A stretch of 64,000 nucleotides of DNA from Candidatus Fermentibacterota bacterium (GTDB taxonomy: Bacteria > Fermentibacterota > Fermentibacteria > Fermentibacterales > JCC-6). The notes beneath the pieces are model-generated. The model was not told where the DNA came from and did no database searches. It saw only the letters and a program-made list of their open reading frames with translations. This document shows positions 27,762 to 63,154 of this stretch, piece by piece (position 1 is the first letter of the stretch; every line of letters starts with the position of its first letter). The position numbers and the translations under genes were made by a program. The stretch covers positions 1 through 64,000 of the forward strand of contig WJMA01000054.1 of the NCBI GenBank assembly GCA_014728175.1, given 5' to 3'.

Positions 27762-29627
27762 TTATTCCGGAGGTACCAAGTTGAAGGGGACGGTCATCGG
27801 AAGATTGGCCGTCTGCTCGGGAGCAGGGCCGAAGTTAACCGCCGCTATCGCCGCCCGGATCGTGGGCTTCAGACCCGACAGATCCGAGGGAGCCTGCACG
27901 TTTACGTTGGTGACCGAGCCGCTGGGAGTAATATCGAAGTGCAGGGTGATCCGACCGCCCGCAGTAGGATTGCTGCGAAGCAGGTTCTCGTATGCGGTCT
28001 GAACCCTCATCTTGATTACGTTGACCCTGCGGCGGATGCTGGTCAGGTCACGGTAACCCAGATCCAGGGCCTCGCCCGAACCCGAAACGTTGAAGGATAC
28101 GCTGGCCGCCCTGTGTACCGCCTCCACCTCGCTCTCCGAGACGGTCTCGGCTACGTCGGCCACTCCTCCGCCGGCACCGACCAGGTTGTCTATTCCCCCC
28201 GAGCCACCTCCACCGGACCCGGCCAGTATTCCCTGCCCGGACTCGCCGGAGGCCAGCCCCAGACCGGAAGATGCGGCGGACTGCAGATCGGTAACTATTC
28301 CGGCGCCTCCACCGGACGATCCCGTTCCATAGGCGGCGAATCCAATACTGCTGAGCACGTTGTCGGCAGCCTCCTGTCCGGCCGCTACACCGGCCGGGCC
28401 CGCTCCGCCGCCTCCAGGCGGCCCACCGCCTCCGGAAACCTCGCCCATGGTCTCCCCGGTGGGTACGTCGGAGATAATCTCCTCCGCCACGGCCTCACCG
28501 GTCTGGGCGGGGGTTTGATCGGCCAAACTCGCAACACGGGCAGTGGGAGCCCTTCTAAGCATCTCCGACTTGCTTACCTCGGTCACCATTACGATTCGGT
28601 CCAGGACCGCACCCGTAAGCAGGGCTATGGCCAGACCTACTCCGATGATCACCTGGAAGCGGCTGGACTCTTCCTTCTGGCCCCTGAAGACAATGCCGTC
28701 GTGGGGACGAACAGCGAAGTTCCTCCATTCGTAGCGGGACGGCTTGAATTTCTCCCGGACGACCTTCTTTGGCTTCTCCTCTTTCTTCTCCGGAGGCTTG
28801 GCGAAGGTGAATGCTATCTCGGTGTCGCCGACCTTGAACACGCCGGTCACGTTCTTGTCTAACTCCCAGGTGTAGGGCTCGCCCGGAGCTTCCTGCTTCA
28901 GGAGGTTGCGCTCTATGAGGGTATCGAACGGAATTATGTTGCCCTTGACCTCCACCCCGCCCTTGATTGGCGGCACCAGGCGCAGGAGGTACTTGCCGTC
29001 AATGGGTTCCAACAGGGTGTGTATCCGGGGCAGGTCGGGATTTTCCACGCTCACCGTGTTGTACGCAGCGTTGCCGATGGTCATTATTCCCGCGTTGGGG
29101 AACATCTCCTTCCGCATGCCCCCGGTTCTCTCCACTATGATCTTAAGCACGCGGTCGTCTTTGGCCGGCGCCGCCTCCGGCTTCTTCTCCTTTACCTTCG
29201 CCGGAGCCGGCTTGGGCTTAGGCTTGGTCTTGGGCGGGGTTATGAAGCCGAAATGGATCACGAACGGACCGACGCTGATCTGGCCCTGGTCGCCCTGCTT
29301 AATGTTTAGCAAGAAGTAGCCCTCGTCGTCGCGGGGGAAGATTCCCATGCCCTTGAGGTCGGCGAAGTTGAGCTTGGAGCCGTCGGAGGATTCGATCTTG
29401 GCCTCCATCGACTCCTCCAGCCGGAGCACCCACACTCCGCGCGCGTCTCCGGGCGATATGAGGACCATGCTGTCGGGCAGGCCGGCTCCCTCGGCGACTA
29501 TGTCGTTGTTGTAGCCGCTTCCCAACCTTACGGGATCCTTGCCGGGGATCAGCTTGTTGACTACCTTGCCCTCGCGCATGACCGCTACGGCAAGAACTCT
29601 CTTCTCTGCAGGTGTGGCAACCATCAC
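27762..29627 (-). CDS. AgmX/PglI-like TonB-type protein with FHA-like N-terminal regions
   Basis: Two FHA-like blocks (PVRLGSGYNNDIV; IMTIGNAAYNTVSV), one TM (FQVIIGVGLAIALLTGAVL), Gly-rich linker, and C-terminal GRITLHFDITPSGSVTNVNVQAPSDLSGLKPTIRAAIAAVNF. Confidence 0.75.
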   Translation of the reverse strand: MMVATPAEKRVLAVAVMREGKVVNKLIPGKDPVRLGSGYNNDIVAEGAGLPDSMVLISPGDARGVWVLRLEESMEAKIESSDGSKLNFADLKGMGIFPRDDEGYFLLNIKQGDQGQISVGPFVIHFGFITPPKTKPKPKPAPAKVKEKKPEAAPAKDDRVLKIIVERTGGMRKEMFPNAGIMTIGNAAYNTVSVENPDLPRIHTLLEPIDGKYLLRLVPPIKGGVEVKGNIIPFDTLIERNLLKQEAPGEPYTWELDKNVTGVFKVGDTEIAFTFAKPPEKKEEKPKKVVREKFKPSRYEWRNFAVRPHDGIVFRGQKEESSRFQVIIGVGLAIALLTGAVLDRIVMVTEVSKSEMLRRAPTARVASLADQTPAQTGEAVAEEIISDVPTGETMGEVSGGGGPPGGGGAGPAGVAAGQEAADNVLSSIGFAAYGTGSSGGGAGIVTDLQSAASSGLGLASGESGQGILAGSGGGGSGGIDNLVGAGGGVADVAETVSESEVEAVHRAASVSFNVSGSGEALDLGYRDLTSIRRRVNVIKMRVQTAYENLLRSNPTAGGRITLHFDITPSGSVTNVNVQAPSDLSGLKPTIRAAIAAVNFGPAPEQTANLPMTVPFNLVPPE

Positions 29628-30154
29628 TGCTCACCTTCCGCTTTGATCACTTCCAGGTTCTGCAGGCTGAATCCGGCCTCGGAGCTGCTGGCCATGACCC
29701 TCTGCAGTAGGATGGCCGGTATGGCCACGTCTCCCTGGATGTTGATCTTCATGTCCTCTTCGGTGATGGTACCTTTCATCCGCCTATTGTATTCCATATG
29801 GTCCGACAGCCGGCTGGTGAGGGCCGGAATGGATCCCCCGGTGGACAGGAGCTCGTCGTTTACCGCGACTATAGGATCGCCGTCAACCACTATGGCCTCT
29901 TTGTTGACCTGGATCTCGAGCTTCATCTCCACCTTCTGCTCCACCGAAGCCTTGGGTAGGGTGAGAGCGTCACTGATCGTTATTATCTGTCCCTCGGCGC
30001 TGTAGCTCTTCAGAAGAAACACCACCAATATGGTGAACATGTCTATCATGGAGGTGAGGTTCAGCTCTACCTTCTTGTCCGCCCCTCGGAATATCGCCTT
30101 GCTCTTCCTGTAGCCCATAAGAAGGGGCAATTTCCTTTTGGTAGGAGCGCTCAT
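29624..30154 (-). CDS. ExbD/TolR-like biopolymer transport protein
   Basis: ADKKVELNLTSMIDMFTILVVFLLKSYSAEG: single TM with the conserved Asp. Confidence 0.8.
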   Translation of the reverse strand: MSAPTKRKLPLLMGYRKSKAIFRGADKKVELNLTSMIDMFTILVVFLLKSYSAEGQIITISDALTLPKASVEQKVEMKLEIQVNKEAIVVDGDPIVAVNDELLSTGGSIPALTSRLSDHMEYNRRMKGTITEEDMKINIQGDVAIPAILLQRVMASSSEAGFSLQNLEVIKAEGEQ

Positions 30155-30167
30155 CGTTCCCTCATCC

Positions 30168-30719
30168 TCACTGTTGCGCGGCCCTGTTTACGGTGGCCGC
30201 CGGGGCCACCTGAAGACCGGGCTCGTCGAATCCGGCATCCGCGCATACGTCTATGGTCCTGATTATGTTGTCGTACCTGGTTTCCTCCACCGTCAAAATG
30301 GTGATCTTGCTGAAGTCTATGCTCGGATATGCCCTGGACAGCTCGTTGTAAACGTCGTTTATCTTCACCGCCAAAGAGTCGAAATCGTAGGTCAGGACCT
30401 CGCCCTCCGGCCTCTGTTCCCTAAAGGTGTAACAGACGTGCATGGTTCCGGCGGTGGTACCAATGAACATCTCCTGGCTGGTCATGATGACCTTGGGTTG
30501 AAGCCTTTCCTCCTCGCTTCTGGCCAGGTTGGTGGTGGCACCTGTCGCGCCTTGCCGTATTCCCTGGGTCGGGGCCATGGTTATGGTCGCTATCTCCAGG
30601 AAGGAAGCACTTAGCAGGAGGAAGGGAATGATGACGCAGAAGAGGTTCATCACCGGAAGCAGATCCAGTTGGGGAGGATGCTTCTTCCGGTGGCTCCTCT
30701 TGCTGGCAGCTTGCGCCAT
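30168..30719 (-). CDS. Second ExbD/TolR-like protein
   Basis: HPPQLDLLPVMNLFCVIIPFLLLSASFLEIATITM; Asp replaced by N in the TM position, neighbouring ExbB and ExbD. Confidence 0.7.
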   Translation of the reverse strand: MAQAASKRSHRKKHPPQLDLLPVMNLFCVIIPFLLLSASFLEIATITMAPTQGIRQGATGATTNLARSEEERLQPKVIMTSQEMFIGTTAGTMHVCYTFREQRPEGEVLTYDFDSLAVKINDVYNELSRAYPSIDFSKITILTVEETRYDNIIRTIDVCADAGFDEPGLQVAPAATVNRAAQQ

Positions 30720-31609
30720 CAGCTCTCCTTTCTCGCCTGAGCGAGCATGTTGATGACCATGACGGAGTAGCGGTCGATGTCATCGATCAGCCTGTCCGTC
30801 TTGGAGGTTATGAAGGAGTAGCCTATAAGCATGGGGATGGCCGAGATCAGTCCGAAGGCGGTGGTATGCATCGCCTGGGAGATACCGTTGGCCAGAAGGG
30901 TGCTCTTGGTCTCGGGGTCGGCATGAGCCACGGCGCTGAACGCCATGATCAGTCCGAATATCGTACCCAGGAGGCCCACCATGGTGGAGACGTTGGCCAG
31001 CATCGCCAGGTAAGGCGTCCGGGCATTCAGCCTGGGCAACTCGGCCAGCGCCATCTCGTCCACCGCGTTCTGGATGTCGCGCTCGGTTCCCCTGTAGTTC
31101 CGAAGCGCCGCTTCTATAATCCGGGCCAGCGGCGCGTCCTTCTGGGAGGCGGTAGCTATCGCTCCCTCGATGCTGCCCTTCCGTATTAGCTCGGCTATCC
31201 TGGCCATGAAGTTCTCGGGCTTCACGTTGGCCACGAAGAAGAGGAAGATGAACCGTTCGATGAAAATGGCAATGCCGGCCACCAGGAAGACCAGGATGAC
31301 CCACATCGCCTGCCTGCCCTTGCGGAAGAACTCGGCCACGGAGGCGAAGAAGCCCTGGTCCCCCACCTCGGCCTCTTCCTGAACTGCGGCCGTATCCAGA
31401 GGAGCGACGGCGGCCAGTGTGTCCTCTTCCTCACCGGGCTCTGCTATCGCCGACGTATCCGCGGCCAGGCTGTCCGCCGCCGTGGTATCCGCCGCCGCAC
31501 TGTCTGCAGCCATGCTGTCGGCGCCCGCCGGCTGGGCAAAGCACGCGTCGGGCATAACGAGCCCCAATACCAGTAGCATGACGAAAGGAATCAAGATTCG
31601 ACGCATCAA
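30719..31609 (-). CDS. MotA/TolQ/ExbB proton channel family protein with signal peptide and Ala/Asp-rich extension
   Basis: LAMLANVSTMVGLLGTIFGLIMAFSAVAHADPETKSTLLANGISQAMHTTAFGLISAIPMLIGYSFI is a canonical MotA/ExbB block. Confidence 0.92.
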   Translation of the reverse strand: MMRRILIPFVMLLVLGLVMPDACFAQPAGADSMAADSAAADTTAADSLAADTSAIAEPGEEEDTLAAVAPLDTAAVQEEAEVGDQGFFASVAEFFRKGRQAMWVILVFLVAGIAIFIERFIFLFFVANVKPENFMARIAELIRKGSIEGAIATASQKDAPLARIIEAALRNYRGTERDIQNAVDEMALAELPRLNARTPYLAMLANVSTMVGLLGTIFGLIMAFSAVAHADPETKSTLLANGISQAMHTTAFGLISAIPMLIGYSFITSKTDRLIDDIDRYSVMVINMLAQARKES

Positions 31610-31633
31610 GTCTCTCCTCTCATACGGAATTCT

Positions 31634-32116
31634 CTATCTGCCCCCCAGATCCAGGATGACGTTCGCCACCAGGTCGAGGCCGGCTATCACGCCGAATATC
31701 AGCCCCTGTTCCTCGTTGTCGGAGCTGTAGCTGTAGCCGGAAGCTCCGGCGAACGCAGCCACCGATCCGTACCTGACCCACCAAGGAAGTATATGCACAT
31801 GCTCACCCGAACCGAAAGTAGGCTCTCCCGCGAACGCTCCGGGATATATAGGGCTGACTACGTCCTCCAGGAAGCTTCGCTCCAAAAGAACGTTGCTGAG
31901 GTTGGGGGTGGTCTTGAGCATCAGGAATATGGCCTGTGGGGTCCGCAACTCGCCCCGGATGGTTATCTCCTCCAGTATTAGCCGGCCCTCTTCGTCGAAC
32001 TCGGCCTCCTGTGAGTAGGAGACGCTCCAGGCCAGAATCAACAGAGCGGTCAGCAATATCGGCAGGAAGGCACGACCTTCGTTTCGACCCCTTGCTAGAA
32101 CGGCCACAGAAAACAC
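31634..32116 (-). CDS. Hypothetical secreted protein
   Basis: Hydrophobic N-terminus (LPILLTALLILAWSVSYSQEAEFDEEG); lies inside a tightly packed co-oriented cluster. Confidence 0.55.
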   Translation of the reverse strand: MFSVAVLARGRNEGRAFLPILLTALLILAWSVSYSQEAEFDEEGRLILEEITIRGELRTPQAIFLMLKTTPNLSNVLLERSFLEDVVSPIYPGAFAGEPTFGSGEHVHILPWWVRYGSVAAFAGASGYSYSSDNEEQGLIFGVIAGLDLVANVILDLGGR

Positions 32117-35100
32117 CCCCCGCCCTCGCCTTCTTCCTCCTCGTACTCCGAAGGCTGCTCCTCTACTTCCTCACCGACCTGCTCGGGCTCTTCTTCCTCC
32201 TCCTCGGAGGGAGGCTGCTCCGTCTCGGGCTCCTCTGCGGCCTCGAAGCCCTCCTCGGTTTCCTCACCCTCTTCCGGCGCACCCTCCGTAGGCTCACCCG
32301 TGGTCGGTGCAGCCTCCTCGGTTTCGCTCACGTATCCTATCTCCGCCGGCATGCCGGGAGCAATGAGATCCAGGTGCTCCGCCGCCTTTTCCACCCATTC
32401 GTTGTCTATTCCAGAGGATACGGCCTTTTCCAGGGCGGTGCGGTAGACTTGCTGCGCCTGTTGCATCTTCGGTTCGTAGAAACGCGAATAGAGACTGTTG
32501 TAGAATTCGTCGACGGCGTTGGGATCGTCAGCTATCTCCGCCGGGGGATCCATGAAGGCGATAGCGTTTGCGAAGTCCTCGTAGAGCTCTCCCGCCCTTA
32601 CGCAGGCGGCCATGAAGTACACGTCGTTGCGATACTCCAAAGCCTTGCCGTACCATCTCTCGGCCTCCTGCATCAGCTGGGTCTTCCTCTGGGCCGTCTC
32701 GGTGGTGACTTCCAGGGCGTCGTAATCCTCGTAAGCCATCTCACCCAGGTAGAAGGCCGACTGAGCGGGGAAGAACGGATCGCCCGACCGGTGCTGATCG
32801 TAGACCTCTATGCAGTCCTGGAACATGTTTCTGGCCCTGGAGAAGGAACCCATGTCATACAGGTGCTTGCCGTACCTGCCGTAAACGTGGACCATCATAT
32901 CCGCCGAGCCGGTCCGCTCGGAGATGATCCTGTCGTACACGTTCACGGCCAGGTCCATCCTCTCGGCTTCCTCGTAGGCGACCGCGGCACTGTAGAGCGC
33001 CCTGCCCATGTCCTGGTAATTGGGGAACATGGAGTACGCCTCCAGGTAGGTGTCTCCGGCCATCTCGTTCCGACCCAGCTCTCTGGCCATATATGCGGCC
33101 CGGAGCATCCCCTTCGGGGCCAGCTCACTCTCGGGATATAGCTGCGCCAGGTCGCGGAAGACCCGTATGGCGTCCTCGATCGCTCCGGCCTTCCCGAAGG
33201 TCTCCCCCGCATCGTACAGGGCGTTGGGGGCTATTTCCGATTCGGGGTGATTCCTGGCCGATTCCTCGTACCTCTGGGCCGCGGCTATGAGACTGGAGGT
33301 ATCCTCGGACTCCGCCAAGGAGGAAGCATCGCGATAAGCGGCGGTGGCAGCCAGCAGCTCCACGTCCTCGCCCAGGTCTTCCCCGGTTCTGGCGGCGGTT
33401 TCCGAAGCGCGACTGTACCACTCCTCCGCATCGGAGTACATCTCTTCGGCCTCGTACGCCGCGGCTATGAACCTGGCCGACCTGGCCGCATAATCGCAAT
33501 TGGGGTACTGGTTGTACACGGTCGTGTACAGCTCTCTGGCCTGGTTGTACTTCTTGGCGTTGTACAGGTTGCCGGCGACCCCAAACAGGAACTGGGGCGC
33601 GTTCTCGCCCTGGGGGAAGCTTTCCACGTAGAAGTTGGTGGCCTCGATCTGTTTCTGCCTGACCTCCGCGCTGTCTATCCCCGGCTGCTCGTCGTAAGCG
33701 ATGAAATAGGAGCTCCAGGCATTGTTGGCCGCGTCCTCCCTGCGCTGCGAGGAAATACTGTCCCTGGCCACCGCCATGTAGGTGTCGCCGGCCTCCACGT
33801 AGTTGCCCAGAGCGTAGTAGGCGTCACCCAGCAGGAAACGGAAGTCGTAAGTGCTGCGGGAATCGCCGTACTCCTGCAGATATATCTCTATTCTGTCGGT
33901 CAACGACTCGTAGTAGGGGCGGGCCTGGGCCGGGGACTCCTTGGCCATCTCCACCGCCTGGTTGTGATAGAAGGCTATCGCCTGTTCCAGAGACGATCCC
34001 CTCAGGGAGTCTATAGCGGCCATGGACGCTTCCTCACCCACCTCCTGGGCCCACTCGCTCTGCTCCCCGTACTCGTCCACCAGGGCCTCTCTGGCCACCG
34101 CCGCCTGCTCGTGGTCGCCCATGCCCTCGTAGCAGACCGCTATGCGGGCCTGGAAGAAGGGAGCTCTCTGGTGATTCGGATGCCTGTTCAGCAAAGCCTC
34201 GTAGGAATCGATCGCGTCCGACCAGTAACCCTGCTCCCTGTAGAAGTCGGCCATATGCTTCAGCACCTCGAAGCTTACCTCCCGGTCACCGAAATCGTCG
34301 AGGAAGCTGGTGGCCATACTTACCGGGGGGCCCTTCTTCTGCTCCATGAAGTCGTGGGCTATGTACTCTACGGCCTCGTCCACCATGGCCCCGCCCCGGC
34401 GAGAGACGCCTAAAGAATCCATCAGCTGGCTGTCCTTTATCAGATAACCGAAGGTCGCGGCAGATTTCAGGTAATTGTTCAGCATGTACTCGGTCCAGGC
34501 CAGCTTGTACACACCGAGCTGGAAATGGTCGGGGTCCATTCCCGGGTAGTCCAGAACGTGCCGGTAGTACGCCCGGGCGCTGTCGAACTCGAAGCTGTCG
34601 AAGTAGTAATCGCCGGTCCTGATGTACGTTTCGGGTGCCAGCTCGCTGTTCGGCCACCTCTCCAGAAGGGTCTTGTACTTGCTTACCGCCTCCGTGGGGT
34701 CTCCCATCACGCTGAGGCAGTATCCGAGTGAGTAGAGCGCTACGTCCTCCACCTCGCTTCCGGGGTAGTTGGTCAGTACCCGCTGGTAAAGCTCGACCGA
34801 CCGCGAGTAATCCTCGGGAACGTAACCCTCCGCCTGGTCGAGCCGATCGAGGTAGTTGGCCTTGTCTATGTCGTAGTATAGCTGCGCCAGCCGCACCAGG
34901 ACGTCCGGGATGAACCTGGAGTCCGGAAAGCTGGCCATGTACTCCTCGAAGTAGGTGGCCGACTCCAGGGCCGCCTGTTGTATTCTGGCCTGCAGGGCCC
35001 TGGACTCCTCCTGTCGCTGCTGTATCAGAATCTCAGCCATGGTGGTGTCTTTCTGGGTGTAGGCCTCGTCGATCCTCTGGGCGTACATCCTTCCCAGGTA

Positions 35101-36612
35101 AGCGAGGGAGTCACGCTTCAGCTCCCTCTCCATGTACTTGGCGATGGCTATGCCGTAATTGGTTTCCTGTACCCAGTCGTGCTCCTGGGTCAGGCCGCTC
35201 TCGAACTGGGATGCCAGGTCCTGCAGGGCCAGGTGGATCCTGTTGACCTCCTCCTCCAGTCGCTGCAGCCGCTGTAGGTCTTGCGAGCTGCCCCTGCTCT
35301 CGGCGATGCGCTCTACCTCGTCAACGCTGACTGCCAGGGCCTTCGTGGACTCCCTGCTTCGGCTGATCAGCACGTTCAATTCTCTACGCAGGCTCTCCTG
35401 GTCTATGTCGACAGGCATGGCCAGCTCCGACTCCAGGTTGCTCATCTCCACGAAGAGCTGCCGCAGCTGGGCCTCCTCCTCCTCGATCAGCTCGACCAGC
35501 TCCAGATCTCCCTGGGTGTAGGCCTCTTCCTTCAGCTCGGCCAGACCCAGACGGATGCGTTCCAGTCGTTCCCGCTCGGCCTCGTACTGCTCGTTGGGAG
35601 ATGATCCGCCCGACAGCAGGATGTCGTAGTAGTCCTCACCGCTCAGGTTCTCGCGGAGAAGCCTCTCGTACTTGTGAATGGCTATGTCCAGATCTTCGGC
35701 TCCCAGGGCGCAGTTGGCCATCGCCAGCTCGAACTCGGATCGGAGATCGGACCCCGGAACCTCCTCCAGTACTCTCTCCGCGAGATTGTAGGCGTCCTGG
35801 TAGCTCTCCTGACGCATCAGCGTCCAGACCTTGCCCAACATGGCCACGTCGTAGTAGGAGCTGAAGGGAGATATCTTGTCGTAGTACTCAAGGGCCTCCT
35901 CGTACCTTCCCTCCTCCTCAACCAGGAGCTGGGCCAGCGCGATCCGGGCCCGGTCGGCAAGATCGGTTTCCTTCTTGCTGAAACCGGCATTCTCTATAAG
36001 GTCGATGAGAACCTGCCTGGCCATGTCGATGTTGCCTTCCTCGACGTAGCCGACTGCCTTCAGATACCGGCCTAGCTTCGCGTAGTCCGACCCCGGGGAC
36101 ACGTCGTCGAGCATCTGCCTGGACCGCTCGAACTGCCCGAGATTGTGGTGACAGAGAGCGCTTACGATCAGCGACAGGTCCAGGTGCTCGAAACCCGGAG
36201 ACTCCTCCCTAAGTCGTGTTCCGTACTCCAAGGCCTGGTCGAAGCTCTGGAGCTGGAACTCTATGAGCTCCAGTCTGAACAGGGACCTATCGTAATATCT
36301 GGAATCGGGGAAGCTCTCGACGACGGACTTGAAGGCGTCTCTAGCCCACACTATCGACCCGGAGGTGTACAGCTGCTCACCCAGCTCGAAGGCGCTCTGG
36401 GCACTGGCCATTATGGCCCTCTGGCGGCGCAGCTGAACCAGCTCCGCCTCTATCCTGGTGAGTCTTTGCTCCTCCCTGGCGATCTGCTCCTCGAGGTTGC
36501 GACGCTCCTGACGGGCCCTCTCCAGAAGAATGCTTACATCTTCGTCCTCCTGGGCGGCAACGGGAAGGACAACGGCCATCGCCAGCATAACCAGCAGACA
36601 GGATCTAACCAT
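32095..36612 (-). CDS. Very large TPR-repeat protein (about 1,500 aa), probably periplasmic or surface-associated
   Basis: Signal peptide; N-terminal coiled coil ERARQERRNLEEQIAREEQRLTRIEAELVQLRRQR; many TPR-like segments; acidic Glu-rich C-terminus. Confidence 0.85.
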   Translation of the reverse strand: MVRSCLLVMLAMAVVLPVAAQEDEDVSILLERARQERRNLEEQIAREEQRLTRIEAELVQLRRQRAIMASAQSAFELGEQLYTSGSIVWARDAFKSVVESFPDSRYYDRSLFRLELIEFQLQSFDQALEYGTRLREESPGFEHLDLSLIVSALCHHNLGQFERSRQMLDDVSPGSDYAKLGRYLKAVGYVEEGNIDMARQVLIDLIENAGFSKKETDLADRARIALAQLLVEEEGRYEEALEYYDKISPFSSYYDVAMLGKVWTLMRQESYQDAYNLAERVLEEVPGSDLRSEFELAMANCALGAEDLDIAIHKYERLLRENLSGEDYYDILLSGGSSPNEQYEAERERLERIRLGLAELKEEAYTQGDLELVELIEEEEAQLRQLFVEMSNLESELAMPVDIDQESLRRELNVLISRSRESTKALAVSVDEVERIAESRGSSQDLQRLQRLEEEVNRIHLALQDLASQFESGLTQEHDWVQETNYGIAIAKYMERELKRDSLAYLGRMYAQRIDEAYTQKDTTMAEILIQQRQEESRALQARIQQAALESATYFEEYMASFPDSRFIPDVLVRLAQLYYDIDKANYLDRLDQAEGYVPEDYSRSVELYQRVLTNYPGSEVEDVALYSLGYCLSVMGDPTEAVSKYKTLLERWPNSELAPETYIRTGDYYFDSFEFDSARAYYRHVLDYPGMDPDHFQLGVYKLAWTEYMLNNYLKSAATFGYLIKDSQLMDSLGVSRRGGAMVDEAVEYIAHDFMEQKKGPPVSMATSFLDDFGDREVSFEVLKHMADFYREQGYWSDAIDSYEALLNRHPNHQRAPFFQARIAVCYEGMGDHEQAAVAREALVDEYGEQSEWAQEVGEEASMAAIDSLRGSSLEQAIAFYHNQAVEMAKESPAQARPYYESLTDRIEIYLQEYGDSRSTYDFRFLLGDAYYALGNYVEAGDTYMAVARDSISSQRREDAANNAWSSYFIAYDEQPGIDSAEVRQKQIEATNFYVESFPQGENAPQFLFGVAGNLYNAKKYNQARELYTTVYNQYPNCDYAARSARFIAAAYEAEEMYSDAEEWYSRASETAARTGEDLGEDVELLAATAAYRDASSLAESEDTSSLIAAAQRYEESARNHPESEIAPNALYDAGETFGKAGAIEDAIRVFRDLAQLYPESELAPKGMLRAAYMARELGRNEMAGDTYLEAYSMFPNYQDMGRALYSAAVAYEEAERMDLAVNVYDRIISERTGSADMMVHVYGRYGKHLYDMGSFSRARNMFQDCIEVYDQHRSGDPFFPAQSAFYLGEMAYEDYDALEVTTETAQRKTQLMQEAERWYGKALEYRNDVYFMAACVRAGELYEDFANAIAFMDPPAEIADDPNAVDEFYNSLYSRFYEPKMQQAQQVYRTALEKAVSSGIDNEWVEKAAEHLDLIAPGMPAEIGYVSETEEAAPTTGEPTEGAPEEGEETEEGFEAAEEPETEQPPSEEEEEEPEQVGEEVEEQPSEYEEEEGEGGGCFLWPF

Positions 36613-55374: not shown

Positions 55375-58098
55375 TCAATTCGTAGACAAGCTGTCAGCCC
55401 TCTCGAACAGGGCCTTGGCCTCCTCCGTTCTTCCTATACCCATGGTGGCCCTGGCCAGCGCCCGGGTGGCCGCCGCGCTAAGAGGTTCCTTCCGTAAAGC
55501 CATCTCCGCATGCCGGCGGGCGCTGTCCCACATGTCCAGGGCAGACTCGAACAACGAGAGATCTGTCAGAAGTGATGCCGACGGCCGGGACCCCGGAACC
55601 GCAACCGCCCGCTTCAGGAGCCTCCAGGCCAAGGCGCTCTCGCCCCGTCCCAGGAGTATCCTCGAGGACTGATGTAGCGACTCCGAGAGTCTGTGGGCCG
55701 CCACCAGGAACCCCGGTGCGGTGTCGACGGCCGCCTTCAGGAGCTCTGCCTCCCGGGAGAGGTTCATGCCGGCCCTGGCCGCAACCGCCCTGTGGAAGAG
55801 CTCCGCAGCCACCCAAGTCCGGTCGAAGACCGGTCCCAGGGTGTCCGCTCCCGGAGGCGGCTCTCTCAGCTCCAGAATGCTCTCCAGGTTCTTTTCGGAG
55901 AGCCCCTGCCGGAATACGGCGGCCGGTGCGGTGTACTCCAGCACCGGTCTGTCGTCGCTAACAACCGGGGCATCGGCGGCAAACGCCCTCATCCGCTCTG
56001 GGCCCATAACGTAACAGGCCAGGAAACGCTCCGGAGCGTCCAGGCCGAAACGCCGAAGATCCTCGGCGACCCTTTCTTCCTGCAACCCCTCGAATACCCG
56101 GGTGGGATCCATCGTCCAGTTCTTTCCTCCCACCAGCATGGCGTCCCTGCCCAGTACCCACATGGTGGAGCGGGGAAACACTTCCAGGAAGGTGGAAACC
56201 ACCATTCGGCAGTCGCCCGGAGACATGTCGTAAAGGGGAAGCCACTGGGCCATCACCCCTCCACTGCGGAGCCTGTCACGGCACAATTGGTAGTATTCCA
56301 GGGAGTACAGCGACACCACTCCGGCCAGCGCCGGATGCATCGGCTCCTCGGTTATAACGTCGTACCGGGTTCGGGTGCCCAGCAGGTGGTTGCGACCATC
56401 CTCCACGATCACCCTGACCCTGGGGTCGGAAAGCGCGTCGTGGTTGTAGCGGGAGAACAGCGATGCCGCTTCCACCACGGTGGAGCTTATCTCCACGCAG
56501 TCCACCAGACGAACCTCCCCGAACCTGCATGCGGTGCCCACGGTGATGCCCGTTCCGAAGCAGATAACCGAAACGTTCTCCGGGTTGGGATGCAGCAGCA
56601 TGGGGAAGTAGGCCATCAGCCTGTTCTTCAGGCAGCCCTCGGGGGTGGTGGTAGAGGCCTGGCTGTCCCTTATGACCAGTCGCAGCGAGGAGGGGGCGTC
56701 CCTGCTCTGGGTTACCAGGACCTCCCCCTCGGGGGTGTCCTCCCTGAACACCACCCTCCGGTCCGGGTCCACCCGGCCCGAATCGAGGCGGAGGAAGGTG
56801 GCGCCCGCGCAAACCAGGAGCGCGATGACAGCGACCATCCTCAGTCTACGCCCCCTGGTGAGGATGGACCAGCCTGCGAGCAAGACCAGGGAGAGCAGAA
56901 GCAGCGAGAGCCTCCTGCCCGCCAGGGGCAGCAGCAGGAAGGAAGCGGCGACGGATCCCACCAGGGCACCCAGGGTGTTGGCGGCGGCGAATCTTCCCAC
57001 TCCTCCCCCCGACCTCTCCGGCCGGGGGCTGTACATCTTGGAAAGCGAAGGGAACAACATGCCCGAGGACAGAGTGACCGGCAGCAGGATCAGAAAGACG
57101 GGAACGTATCTTAGCAGAAGGGCTGCGGGTAGGCTGGCAGGGCCGATCACGCTCTCGACCATGTCGGCCCCGGTACGGATGTAGACGCCGGTTAGGGGCA
57201 ACCAGGCCGCCATCACCAGGAGGAGCACCGGTGACCTCCGTCCCGCCGGAACCTCCGATCGCCCGGCCCACCAGGAGCCCAGGGCTATGCCTACCAGCAC
57301 CGCCGCCAGCATGGTGGAAACGGCGTAGATGTTGTTGTAGATGCCACTCACCAGGCCCGTGGTCCACATGACCTCCGCGGCCAGAACCGCCATCCCCACC
57401 AGGAACCCGGCGACCAACGGAGCCCTGGGCCCTCTTTCCCGGTAGGTCTCGGGACCGGCGACGGAAGCAACCTTTACCCTTCGAAATCGAACCAGCAGGG
57501 AGACCACGCCGGCCACCGCACTCAGGGCCATCCCCACGGTCAGGGTTCGCAGCAGACCAAAACGGGGAACCATTACGAATCCGGCGGCCAGGGTACCGAC
57601 GACGGCTCCGGCGGTGTTCCATCCGTACAGGGATGCAACGCTTCGGCCGACTCCCTTTTGTTCGGCCAGCGACCGGGTCAGCACGGGCAGCGTTCCCCCC
57701 ATCATGAAGGTGGGAATGCCCATCACCGCCACCGCCGCCATGAATCTGGCCAGAACCAGCAAAGGACCGCTACCCAGCGATCTGTACGCTGAGGAAAACA
57801 GCGGTTCCAAAAACTGGGGAAGAACGAACGCTGCCAGCGCGGAGACCATGGTCCCGAACTGCAGCAGCGCGTAGATCCTTACCGGCCTGGCTCCCCGCCT
57901 GTCCGCCAGGGGACCCAGAAGCCGGCTTCCCAGAGCCATTCCCCCCATGAAAGCGGCCAGAACAGCCGAAAGGGCCTGGCTGGTCCCACCCAGAAGCAAG
58001 GACAGGCGACGGAACCAGACCACCTCGTAGACCAGGCCGGCCGCTCCGGAGAGGAACAGAGTGAGGTACAGGAGGTGAGCCCGGGCCCTGACGATCAT
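55375..58098 (-). CDS. Fused MFS-type membrane/spermidine synthase-like/TPR protein
   Basis: N-terminal TM region LYLTLFLSGAAGLVYEVVWFRRLSLLLGGTSQALSAVLAAFMGGMALGS; spermidine synthase block VRLVDCVEISSTVVEAASLF...RVIVEDGRNHLL; TPR-like C-terminus. Confidence 0.9.
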   Translation of the reverse strand: MIVRARAHLLYLTLFLSGAAGLVYEVVWFRRLSLLLGGTSQALSAVLAAFMGGMALGSRLLGPLADRRGARPVRIYALLQFGTMVSALAAFVLPQFLEPLFSSAYRSLGSGPLLVLARFMAAVAVMGIPTFMMGGTLPVLTRSLAEQKGVGRSVASLYGWNTAGAVVGTLAAGFVMVPRFGLLRTLTVGMALSAVAGVVSLLVRFRRVKVASVAGPETYRERGPRAPLVAGFLVGMAVLAAEVMWTTGLVSGIYNNIYAVSTMLAAVLVGIALGSWWAGRSEVPAGRRSPVLLLVMAAWLPLTGVYIRTGADMVESVIGPASLPAALLLRYVPVFLILLPVTLSSGMLFPSLSKMYSPRPERSGGGVGRFAAANTLGALVGSVAASFLLLPLAGRRLSLLLLSLVLLAGWSILTRGRRLRMVAVIALLVCAGATFLRLDSGRVDPDRRVVFREDTPEGEVLVTQSRDAPSSLRLVIRDSQASTTTPEGCLKNRLMAYFPMLLHPNPENVSVICFGTGITVGTACRFGEVRLVDCVEISSTVVEAASLFSRYNHDALSDPRVRVIVEDGRNHLLGTRTRYDVITEEPMHPALAGVVSLYSLEYYQLCRDRLRSGGVMAQWLPLYDMSPGDCRMVVSTFLEVFPRSTMWVLGRDAMLVGGKNWTMDPTRVFEGLQEERVAEDLRRFGLDAPERFLACYVMGPERMRAFAADAPVVSDDRPVLEYTAPAAVFRQGLSEKNLESILELREPPPGADTLGPVFDRTWVAAELFHRAVAARAGMNLSREAELLKAAVDTAPGFLVAAHRLSESLHQSSRILLGRGESALAWRLLKRAVAVPGSRPSASLLTDLSLFESALDMWDSARRHAEMALRKEPLSAAATRALARATMGIGRTEEAKALFERADSLSTN

Positions 58099-60385: not shown

Positions 60386-63154
60386 TTGGGCCTGACCATT
60401 CCCGGATACAGCCCGGTGAGGAAGCTTTTGGCCGACCATCTCGGCGTTCTTTACCTGGCCGTAAAGAAGTCGGACGGATCACACGTGGAGATCCGGATAC
60501 TCCGACAGGGACTGTTCGAATCGGTGGAGATCAGGCAGCAGTTCCTGGAGAGAGTGGACAGCCTCGCCGAGCTCAGTCATCCGGGCATCATCTCCCTCCT
60601 GGATCACTTCGAGCAGGACGGAAGGCTGATCCTGGCCTACGAGCATTTCCGAAGCCGGCCCTTCTCCGACTTCCTGGCCGAGAATCCCGGGCCCATTCCT
60701 GCCAGCAGGGCCGTAGAGCTGATGCTGCATGCTTTGGAGCCGGTGGATTTCGCCAACCAGCAGGGTATAATCCATGGTCAGATCGACCCTCTCCACGTAC
60801 TGATCGACGAGTACGACCACATCAAGGTGCGGGAGTTCGGCCTGGTAGACTCCACCGGAAAGCTGGGCCTTTCGCACAAGGGCGTCACCGGAAGCAGCCT
60901 GGTCTACGTCGCACCGGAAAGGCTGCTGGAAAAGGGAGTCAATCACCGCAGCGACGTCTACTCCCTGGGCATGCTTCTGTACAGGCTGCTCACCGGCAGG
61001 TTCCCCTATCCCATAGATTCGGGAAGGCCCGAGGAGATCCTGGCCAGCGTAAAGAAAAAGAGGTATCGCCCGCCCGCCGATTTCGTGGAGATCATGCCCG
61101 CAGAGCTGTCCAAGGCCGTCTCCCGGGCCATAGCCAAGAAGCCCTCCAAACGTCTGGCCTCGACGTCCGAGCTGAGGGACCTTCTGCAACCCTTCCTCAA
61201 AACGGAGGAGGCGGTGGGGGAAAAGGCCCCCGAGGCTCCGCCGGAGAAACCCAAGGCCGCAAAACGACGGAAGCCGGCGGTTGCCAAAAGGCAGGCCAAG
61301 GCTAAAGACCTGGTGGAGGATGCCAGGCTCATGATCGAGCAGGACAGGTCTCGGAACGCGGTTCTCATCGCCAGGAAAGTGTTCGATATATGGCCCCTTT
61401 GCCCGGGATTGGCCGAGATCATCTCCCAGCTGGAGCAGGTTCCGGAGGGAGAAGAGGAACTGGAAGAGGCGGCCGGCGAGGTCTTCGAGGACATCTTCGA
61501 GAAGGAGCTGGGAGAGGAGGTGGACGACGCCGAGTCCCTGCTGGCAACCACCTGGGCACCCTCCGATCCCGAGCGGGAGCACGAGCTGATCTCCAAGATA
61601 CGTATGCATATGCAGCAGAACAATTTTAGGGCTGCAGCGGAGAGCGCCAGCTCGGCCCACAGGGAGTTTCCCAACAACCCGATCATATCCGAGCTCAACA
61701 TCCGTCTGGACAAGCTCTTCCATCCCGAGAAGTACCGGGTCTCGTCGAAGCCTGAGAGCCGATCCAGCACAGTCCCCGGACCGGTGGCCAGAAGAGAGGA
61801 AATAGTCCGGGAGCCTGCCCCCTCCAAGTCCTGGATAGTCAAGGCCCGGGTGGCCGGCCTGAGCGTGCTCGGCGCGCTGATACTGGCGGGCCTTTACCTG
61901 TTCGTCATAAAGCCCAATCTGCTGAATCGGGGTGGGCCTCCCACGGACCAAGGTCCGGAGCCACAACCGCCGCAACCCTACACGGTTTCCATGTGGGTGA
62001 CGGGCCCGGAGTCTGCGCAGGTCTCCGTCGATGGCCAGCGCATAAGGCCGAACGAGAGGGGCGAGTATCGACTGAGAGGTACGGAGTACGGAGAGCTGGA
62101 CATCCAGGTCTACGCCGACAGCTTCGAGACGCTGAGCCGCAGGCTTCAAGTCGGAGAGGGCACTCAGTTGCGGGATACGCTTCACCCACAGCCACTGGGA
62201 ACCGGCACAGTCGAGGTTTCTCTGGACGTCCTAATGCCGGAGGACGAACCCCGGCCGGAGGAGGGTGAGGTAAGCTATTACGTGGACGGGGAGCAAGTGG
62301 AAGAGATGCCGGTGGAAATATCCACGGGCACGCACGTATTCAGGGCCGATCTGGAGGGCTACCGCTCGGTTCCCGAGACTCTATCCATCAGACGTACCGG
62401 TAGCCTTCGGCAGGAGCTCGCTCTCAGCCCGCTACGCTCCGCGGAGATCCGCCTGGCCATAGAAGAAGATCTGGAAGGCCGGGCCGACTTCTACGTCGAC
62501 GGATACAGGGTTGGATCCAACCGCAGGCGTATCACCCATACCGCCTCCTACGGAAACCACACCCTGACCGTCAGGATGGAGGGGAGGGAGGCGTGGGTGA
62601 GGAACATAGACCTCGGGTGGCGTGGTTACTCGGCCATGGTCAGCCCCGCCTCCGCCATAGAACCGGGAAGGCTGCTGATAGCTCCGGAGCCGTGGGCCGA
62701 GGTTTTCATAGACGGGCGCAGCTTCGGAGAGACCCCCATGCCTCCGCTGGAGCTGTCGCCCGGCAGCTACGCAGTAAGACTTGCCAATCCCGACTACCAG
62801 GACCAGGTCCATAACATCGTTATACGCGAGGGGCAGGACACCGCCATTCGATACACCGCCCCTCAGAGGCAGGAGGAGGTCGTACCTCCCGAGGTGATCT
62901 CCCGCACCCAACCCGAGTACCCCAGCGAAGCCCTGGCCCGGGAAGACCTCTCCGGACTGGTGACCCTGTACGTAACCGTATCGGAGGATGGTTCGGTATC
63001 GGACGCAACCGTGGCTCACGACGGCGTCGGATACGGCTTCGCCCAGGCCGCCGTGGAAGCCGTCTACGACTGGCGGTTCCAGCCCGCTACCCAGGGCGGT
63101 GAGCCCGTGGAGGCAACCAAGGCGGTCACCATAACCTACAATCCGCCGGATTGA
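60386..63154 (+). CDS. Protein kinase-like (predicted pseudokinase) - TM - PEGA - TonB C-terminal fusion
   Basis: Kinase-like fold with HGQIDPLHVLID, VREFGLVD, YVAPERLL, SDVYSLGMLLYRLLTGRFPY; TM WIVKARVAGLSVLGALILAGLYLFVI; PEGA-like PEPWAEVFIDGRSFGETPMPPLELSPGSYAVRL; TonB-C PEYPSEALAREDLSGLVTLYVTVSEDGSVSDATV...AVYDWRFQPATQGGEPV. Confidence 0.88.
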   Translation: MGLTIPGYSPVRKLLADHLGVLYLAVKKSDGSHVEIRILRQGLFESVEIRQQFLERVDSLAELSHPGIISLLDHFEQDGRLILAYEHFRSRPFSDFLAENPGPIPASRAVELMLHALEPVDFANQQGIIHGQIDPLHVLIDEYDHIKVREFGLVDSTGKLGLSHKGVTGSSLVYVAPERLLEKGVNHRSDVYSLGMLLYRLLTGRFPYPIDSGRPEEILASVKKKRYRPPADFVEIMPAELSKAVSRAIAKKPSKRLASTSELRDLLQPFLKTEEAVGEKAPEAPPEKPKAAKRRKPAVAKRQAKAKDLVEDARLMIEQDRSRNAVLIARKVFDIWPLCPGLAEIISQLEQVPEGEEELEEAAGEVFEDIFEKELGEEVDDAESLLATTWAPSDPEREHELISKIRMHMQQNNFRAAAESASSAHREFPNNPIISELNIRLDKLFHPEKYRVSSKPESRSSTVPGPVARREEIVREPAPSKSWIVKARVAGLSVLGALILAGLYLFVIKPNLLNRGGPPTDQGPEPQPPQPYTVSMWVTGPESAQVSVDGQRIRPNERGEYRLRGTEYGELDIQVYADSFETLSRRLQVGEGTQLRDTLHPQPLGTGTVEVSLDVLMPEDEPRPEEGEVSYYVDGEQVEEMPVEISTGTHVFRADLEGYRSVPETLSIRRTGSLRQELALSPLRSAEIRLAIEEDLEGRADFYVDGYRVGSNRRRITHTASYGNHTLTVRMEGREAWVRNIDLGWRGYSAMVSPASAIEPGRLLIAPEPWAEVFIDGRSFGETPMPPLELSPGSYAVRLANPDYQDQVHNIVIREGQDTAIRYTAPQRQEEVVPPEVISRTQPEYPSEALAREDLSGLVTLYVTVSEDGSVSDATVAHDGVGYGFAQAAVEAVYDWRFQPATQGGEPVEATKAVTITYNPPD

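Follow-up and report, generated by a model that had tools for sequence, protein, structure and literature searches.

A predicted pseudokinase on a conserved PEGA and TonB_C arm in Candidatus Fermentibacterota: a putative envelope docking protein

Described systems of comparable layout

YukC/EssB is a membrane pseudokinase that was found by measurement not to bind ATP and whose cytoplasmic domain docks the ATPase YukB (PMC9600267). The protein described here shares with it a cytoplasmic pseudokinase with degraded catalytic motifs, one transmembrane (TM) helix and a domain beyond the membrane (PMC9600267). However, YukC/EssB contains neither PEGA nor TonB_C domains and is part of the Gram-positive type VIIb secretion machine, and it was absent among the best 50 Foldseek and the best 60 phmmer matches of our protein. 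PpkA of the Serratia type VI secretion system likewise combines a kinase, a TM segment and a periplasmic domain, and a chain of the RtkS-PpkA structure resembles the tip of our protein, but the kinase of PpkA is active and it lacks a PEGA stalk. GltG of Myxococcus, finally, joins a cytoplasmic FHA docking domain via one TM helix to a TonB_C domain (PMC3169522, PMC5349195). Both GltG and GltJ of the Myxococcus Agl-Glt gliding machine have the order of a cytoplasmic signalling or docking domain, one TM helix, a periplasmic segment and TonB_C in common with our protein. Different from our protein, GltG carries FHA instead of a kinase and works with AglRQS, and the N-terminal FHA domain of the GltG model NF033760 is missing from our protein, which has the kinase in its place.

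The window, by which we mean the whole analysed stretch of 64,000 nucleotides, also holds an operon resembling an Agl-Glt gliding motor (27762-36612, reverse strand). It includes a GltG-like gene that is distinct from the pseudokinase gene (27762-29627) and encodes 621 aa with a TonB_C domain; this protein matches NF033760 with 1.2e-16, which is below the curated cutoff, has an AgmX/PglI tail domain above cutoff and contains no detectable FHA. The rest of the operon encodes two ExbD-type proteins, one MotA/ExbB protein and a 1505-aa TPR protein.

The gene studied here is a single open reading frame of 922 codons that occupies exactly the interval given in the original prediction (60386-63154, forward strand) and encodes the domains foreseen there. 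Its TTG start is immediately preceded by the purine-rich GAAGGGGG. Its features are as follows.

60386..63154 (+): whole gene, 922 aa, TTG start; pseudokinase, TPR-like linker, TM helix, four PEGA-like domains, TonB_C
60386..61195 (+): pseudokinase domain, residues 1-270 (Pfam Pkinase, AlphaFold, Foldseek)
60494..60496 (+): Arg37 replacing the ATP-anchoring beta3 Lys, VEIR for VAIK (kinase alignments)
60773..60796 (+): catalytic loop HGQIDPLH, residues 130-137, for HRDxKPxN (kinase alignments)
60833..60841 (+): EFG, residues 150-152, for DFG, with Asp replaced by Glu150 (kinase alignments)
61256..61735 (+): TPR-like helices, residues 291-350 and 395-450 (alignment with relatives, AlphaFold, TPR matches in relatives)
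61829..61909 (+): single TM helix, residues 482-508 (hydropathy, AlphaFold)
61979..62824 (+): periplasmic stalk, four PEGA-like beta domains (Pfam, AlphaFold, Foldseek)
62891..63142 (+): TonB_C domain, residues 836-919 (Pfam, Foldseek, phmmer)

The fusion is known from one metagenome-assembled genome (MAG), a 96% complete draft of 2.6 Mb in 67 contigs which is the sole genome of genus g1. A recent foreign insertion or an assembly chimera is not supported, as the gene lies inside a 148-kb contig and its third-position GC content is even across kinase, linker and arm (0.75-0.79, the same as in its neighbours). No partner gene is encoded adjoining it. It lies beside a rubrerythrin gene, and the relatives do not share this locus: none of its neighbours was found within ~1.5 kb of the rubrerythrin homologues in 18 other genomes.

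The pseudokinase domain

The N-terminal domain has the bilobal protein kinase fold of the PF00069 family. Pfam Pkinase matches residues 19-261 with 9.9e-27 (PF00069, 94.4 bits at a cutoff of 31.7), AlphaFold models the domain with a pLDDT of 89.4 and a pTM of 0.88, and its best Foldseek matches are PknB, Stk1 and PknA (TM-score 0.74-0.83). It falls outside the PASTA kinases, as the PknB/Stk1 model NF033483 scores 144 bits against a cutoff of 450 and a profile scan detected no PASTA domain in the protein.

The catalytic set of the family is absent, as shown by an alignment to PknB together with 20 further kinase-like domains of bacteria and by a second one to 21 kinases encoded on viral contigs. 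The beta3 Lys, the alphaC Glu, the HRD Asp, the loop Asn and the DFG Asp are replaced by R37, R56, Q132, H137 and E150, respectively, the catalytic loop Lys is replaced by Asp134, and the glycine loop is broken; the 21 aligned kinases have K, D, K, N and D, with hardly any variation, at positions 37, 132, 134, 137 and 150. Four of these changes, namely VEIR for the VAIK-like motif, HGQ for HRD, EFG for DFG and a degenerate glycine loop, had been read correctly from the sequence beforehand. That reading did not include the replaced alphaC Glu, loop Lys and loop Asn, the TPR-like helices at residues ~290-450, the division of the stalk into four beta domains or the phylum-wide family of the arm, the last three of which are described below. 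Intact K/D/D residues or other catalytic motifs at shifted positions were ruled out by the alignment to 21 kinases, so the call of a pseudokinase stands. The residues that keep the fold, in contrast, are retained (A-P-E 176-178, Asp190 of the F-helix and Arg256).

By these alignments the domain lacks every residue needed for catalysis and is predicted to be incapable of acting as a conventional kinase. Having lost VAIK, HRD and DFG altogether on a kinase fold, it qualifies as a bacterial pseudokinase, among which a class with divergence in all three motifs has been defined (PMC12599244). The nucleotide-binding role that had been considered for the domain is unlikely as well, because the glycine loop, the beta3 Lys, the alphaC Glu, the loop Asn and the DFG Asp are all replaced, and YukC, which has comparable losses, does not bind ATP (PMC9600267). 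In the kinase tree the pseudokinase sits on a branch of 3.11 changes per site, compared to a median of 1.46 over all rows, as would be expected once catalysis no longer constrains the sequence.

A six-frame search of the 2.6 Mb host genome (96% complete) revealed no second PF00069 domain, and the cutoff of this family is passed in only 6 of 42 genomes of the order, in one of them only with neighbours in frame. Nor was an FHA domain detected anywhere in the host genome, and although the comparison with YukC might suggest a partner of this type, we do not claim one.

Another genome of the same order (G036, family f2; L111:4383-5186) encodes a standalone kinase-like protein of 267 aa, in which VAIK reads VAIR and HRD reads HGD. 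Its start aligns with the TTG of the window gene, where it reads MGLEFTNY from an ATG as opposed to (L)GLTIPGY, and it is a possible relative of the pseudokinase before fusion. In the tree, a sister relation of the two is only suggested (support 86/41, long branches). The conserved arm was not found in G036, an 80%-complete genome.

The arm and its parent family

The linker that follows the pseudokinase contains two blocks of TPR-like helices (AlphaFold pLDDT over 90). A hydropathy scan finds exactly one TM segment (490-508), which AlphaFold extends to a helix of residues 482-508 and whose hydrophobic core is free of charged residues and of His; the TM segments across the relatives are aliphatic. 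Beyond the membrane, four PEGA-like beta domains (residues 532-616, 630-692, 700-752 and 761-813) form the stalk, for which Foldseek returns pilin and adhesin stalk structures. Thus the single TM helix, the PEGA stalk and the TonB_C domain of the original prediction are confirmed by hydropathy, Pfam, AlphaFold and Foldseek, with Pfam matching both PEGA (1.2e-16, three stretches) and, at the C-terminus, TonB_C (1.3e-13, residues 842-919). The tip resembles the C-terminal domains of TonB in the structures 1u07, 2gsk and 6i97 (Foldseek, target TM-score 0.74-0.80). In a phmmer comparison with solved TonB C-terminal domains it matches TonB2 with 3.2e-7, whereas two parental tips, tested in the same way as slightly shorter queries, match more weakly (1e-4 to 3e-4). 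At residues 842-846 the tip reads QPEYP, which is absent from all 30 aligned relatives and resembles the stretch QPQYP in TonB of E. coli.

The family to which the arm belongs consists of kinase-less proteins, ~680-800 aa long, in which TPR repeats at the N-terminus are followed by one TM helix, PEGA domains and TonB_C. Almost all genomes of the order have a member, that of the host lying at C63, and every named relative belongs to Candidatus Fermentibacterota (Hyd24-12, Fermentibacter, Aegiribacteria and Sabulitectum). The gene order at the parent locus is fixed, with a reverse-strand TPR gene first, then recG, the parent gene, hsp20 and lon. An alignment-based search detected the arm in 32/32 named Fermentibacterota loci, and recG and lon in 30 loci each, the exceptions running off contig ends; hsp20 was undetected in a few of these loci. 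Wherever the flanks of a Fermentibacterota locus are intact (L112:5181-7592 and L059-L090), the TPR-TM-PEGA-TonB_C gene has recG on one side and hsp20-lon on the other. We found no published name for this protein. A search of the named genomes with the window protein as single query matched no close relative.

The window protein is 34-43% identical to members of this family over up to ~640 aa (E values down to 9e-136), with homology in the linker, the TM helix, the stalk and the tip. The TPR-like helices of its linker are inherited from the parent family. Like the recG-hsp20-lon protein it has a single TM helix, a PEGA stalk and a TonB_C tip on a homologous arm. The recG-hsp20-lon protein differs, however, in that it carries N-terminal TPR repeats, has no kinase and resides at a fixed locus. 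A kinase domain is found in none of the 32 named relatives, whose matches to the window protein start at residue 279 or later. Moreover, the window gene does not lie between recG and hsp20-lon. This slot is occupied in the host by the kinase-less C63 copy, and the window gene is an extra, strongly diverged homologue elsewhere in the genome, with a pseudokinase in place of the first TPR repeats.

The divergence is unevenly spread along the arm. The window copy has a branch length of 1.32 in the arm tree and keeps 55 of the 72 arm positions that are invariant in its relatives. These comprise 33 of 37 in the stalk (PEGA domains and linker to the tip) as opposed to 22 of 35 in TonB_C, so that four invariants are lost from the stalk and 13 from the tip. 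A conserved stalk with a rebuilt tip and a rebuilt cytoplasmic end is the pattern that a protein still at work would show after a change of partners. A tip taken from the separate TonB of the host is rejected, as the tip of the window protein shares 40-54% identity with its own family but only 37% with the C52 TonB. The arm tree places the window copy near family f3 (support 98/88), but a grouping with the paralogue of the host itself is not rejected (p-AU 0.24), so that the arm may have arisen by duplication within this lineage, by an old duplication or by transfer from f3.

A proposed docking function and its alternatives

We propose, with a probability of about 57%, that the window protein is anchored in the inner membrane, spans the periplasm and acts in docking or tethering, with a non-catalytic pseudokinase on the conserved Fermentibacterota arm, the kinase fold probably serving as the docking handle of this arm. 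An extra copy of the arm, comprising the TPR-like linker, the TM helix, the PEGA stalk and the TonB_C tip, would have exchanged its first TPR repeats for a kinase domain, which as a rigid surface for protein-protein docking would take on the partner-binding role of the lost repeats. The TM helix could thereby couple a new cytoplasmic partner mechanically to stalk and tip, and the partner would be held at a membrane site set by these periplasmic elements, with the tip contacting an outer-membrane or periplasmic protein or the peptidoglycan.

The computed results are the architecture, the kinase fold, the loss of all its catalytic residues, the descent of the arm from its family, the location at a separate locus and the lack of a second PF00069 kinase in the genome search; from these we infer the docking function, the partners and the direction of signalling. 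Docking is favoured because the catalytic residues are lost but the fold residues are kept in what is modelled as a confident kinase fold, because the replaced part is TPR and thus a protein-binding module, and because the domain is the only PF00069 protein of a 96%-complete genome. It is further favoured because the parent arm is conserved at a fixed locus, in the host too, with the window copy at another, because the invariants of the stalk are kept while the tip is re-specialised, and because YukC/EssB provides a measured precedent. Then again, the gene comes from a single MAG and has no partner gene beside it, and the very long branches of both arm (1.32) and kinase (3.11) could mean relaxed constraint on a gene that is nearing loss; despite these branches its reading frame is fully open.

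The main rival to docking is a sensor that works from the outside in. The tip would receive a periplasmic protein or an envelope-stress signal and alter the state or the dimerisation of the pseudokinase, which would then relay the signal to a partner, much as in Serratia PpkA-RtkS although without phosphorylation. RtkS binds the periplasmic domain of the TM kinase PpkA directly (PMC6082577). In the crystal structure 9k1u of RtkS-PpkA, a chain of 76-77 residues, by its length presumably the PpkA periplasmic domain, matches the TonB_C tip (Foldseek E 2.1e-4), and an intact kinase occurs in the identical kinase-TM-PEGA-TonB_C order in another genome. However, phosphorylation is not available to a dead kinase as a means of relay, and the search of the host genome detected no further PF00069 kinase that it could regulate, and we regard a sensor of this kind as rather unlikely.

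Could the arm instead be a TonB-type energy transducer that is driven by ExbB/ExbD and gated by the pseudokinase, as was originally predicted? The host genome does encode five ExbD-type proteins and four receptors with a Plug domain, and the tip is TonB-like in structure and carries QPEYP. Energy transducers of the TonB type, however, have an N-terminal TM anchor with polar residues or His and are linked to exbB/exbD, and the window protein shares with them the TonB_C domain but neither of these traits. Its TM helix lacks His, Ser-His and any other charged residue for coupling, and begins only at residue 482, with 480 residues in the cytoplasm ahead of it. There is no exbB/exbD next to the gene, the nearest ExbB/ExbD genes in the window being ~29-31 kb away in the GltG-like operon, and a separate TonB lies next to ExbD at C52. 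Position and composition of the TM helix and the lack of exbB/exbD beside the gene thus leave TonB-like energy coupling unsupported, and we consider it improbable, although the tip may still bind an outer-membrane partner.

There is similarly little chance that the gene is a decaying chimera, in which a duplicated arm was accidentally fused to a kinase fragment and now drifts without function. The long branches, the occurrence in a single genome and the loss of the catalytic residues would fit such a history, but the frame is open over 922 codons, the stalk invariants are nearly all kept, GC content at third positions equals that of the neighbours (0.75-0.79), and the pseudokinase retains its fold residues and is modelled at high confidence. 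An unconventional active enzyme, be it of the AMPylating or glutamylating type known from the altered-motif pseudokinase-fold enzymes SelO and SidJ or a weak kinase, is very improbable, since SelO keeps the Lys and the metal-binding motif (WHLK, DYG; PMC12599244), all of which are replaced in the window protein.

The gene constitutes a clean natural experiment, in which a protein found throughout a phylum's envelopes retains its stalk and exchanges a TPR docking module for a dead kinase. That this exchange is seen in a genome without another detected PF00069 kinase argues that a kinase fold can be taken up for its binding surface alone. The protein also joins two poorly understood groups, the bacterial pseudokinases and the non-canonical TonB_C proteins.

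The original prediction had named no described example of such a fusion, and the literature agrees: we found no description of a kinase/PEGA/TonB_C class in open-access publications, and neither PEGA nor TonB is mentioned in a review of the pseudokinase families of bacteria from 2025 (PMC12599244). Similar but undescribed architectures do exist, though. In a small survey of TonB_C matches in 18 genomes of other lineages we detected a kinase domain in 2 of the 15 longer frames that were checked, a lower bound, as the longest frame of the stretch was for a few of them not the TonB_C frame. The two come from distant, unrelated genomes. One (L208) has a kinase with all catalytic residues followed by a TM helix, PEGA (just below the curated cutoff) and TonB_C, and the other (L214) has a kinase that keeps the Lys and DFG but reads HLN for HRD, followed by a TM helix, TPR repeats and TonB_C. 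Their likeness to the window protein is one of overall domain order. The kinase-TonB_C class looks both recurrent and undescribed, and its occurrence in other bacteria opens it to study in laboratory strains. Tentatively, a kinase fold joined by a TM helix to PEGA/TonB_C might represent a recurrent class of Gram-negative envelope transducers of several origins, in which the kinase of some lineages is dead and serves docking alone, making them a double-membrane counterpart of YukC/EssB.

Elsewhere in the window, positions 55375-58098 (reverse strand) encode a 907-aa membrane protein in which the same frame continues, as judged by eye, into a domain resembling the spermidine synthase type and a C-terminal repeat region.
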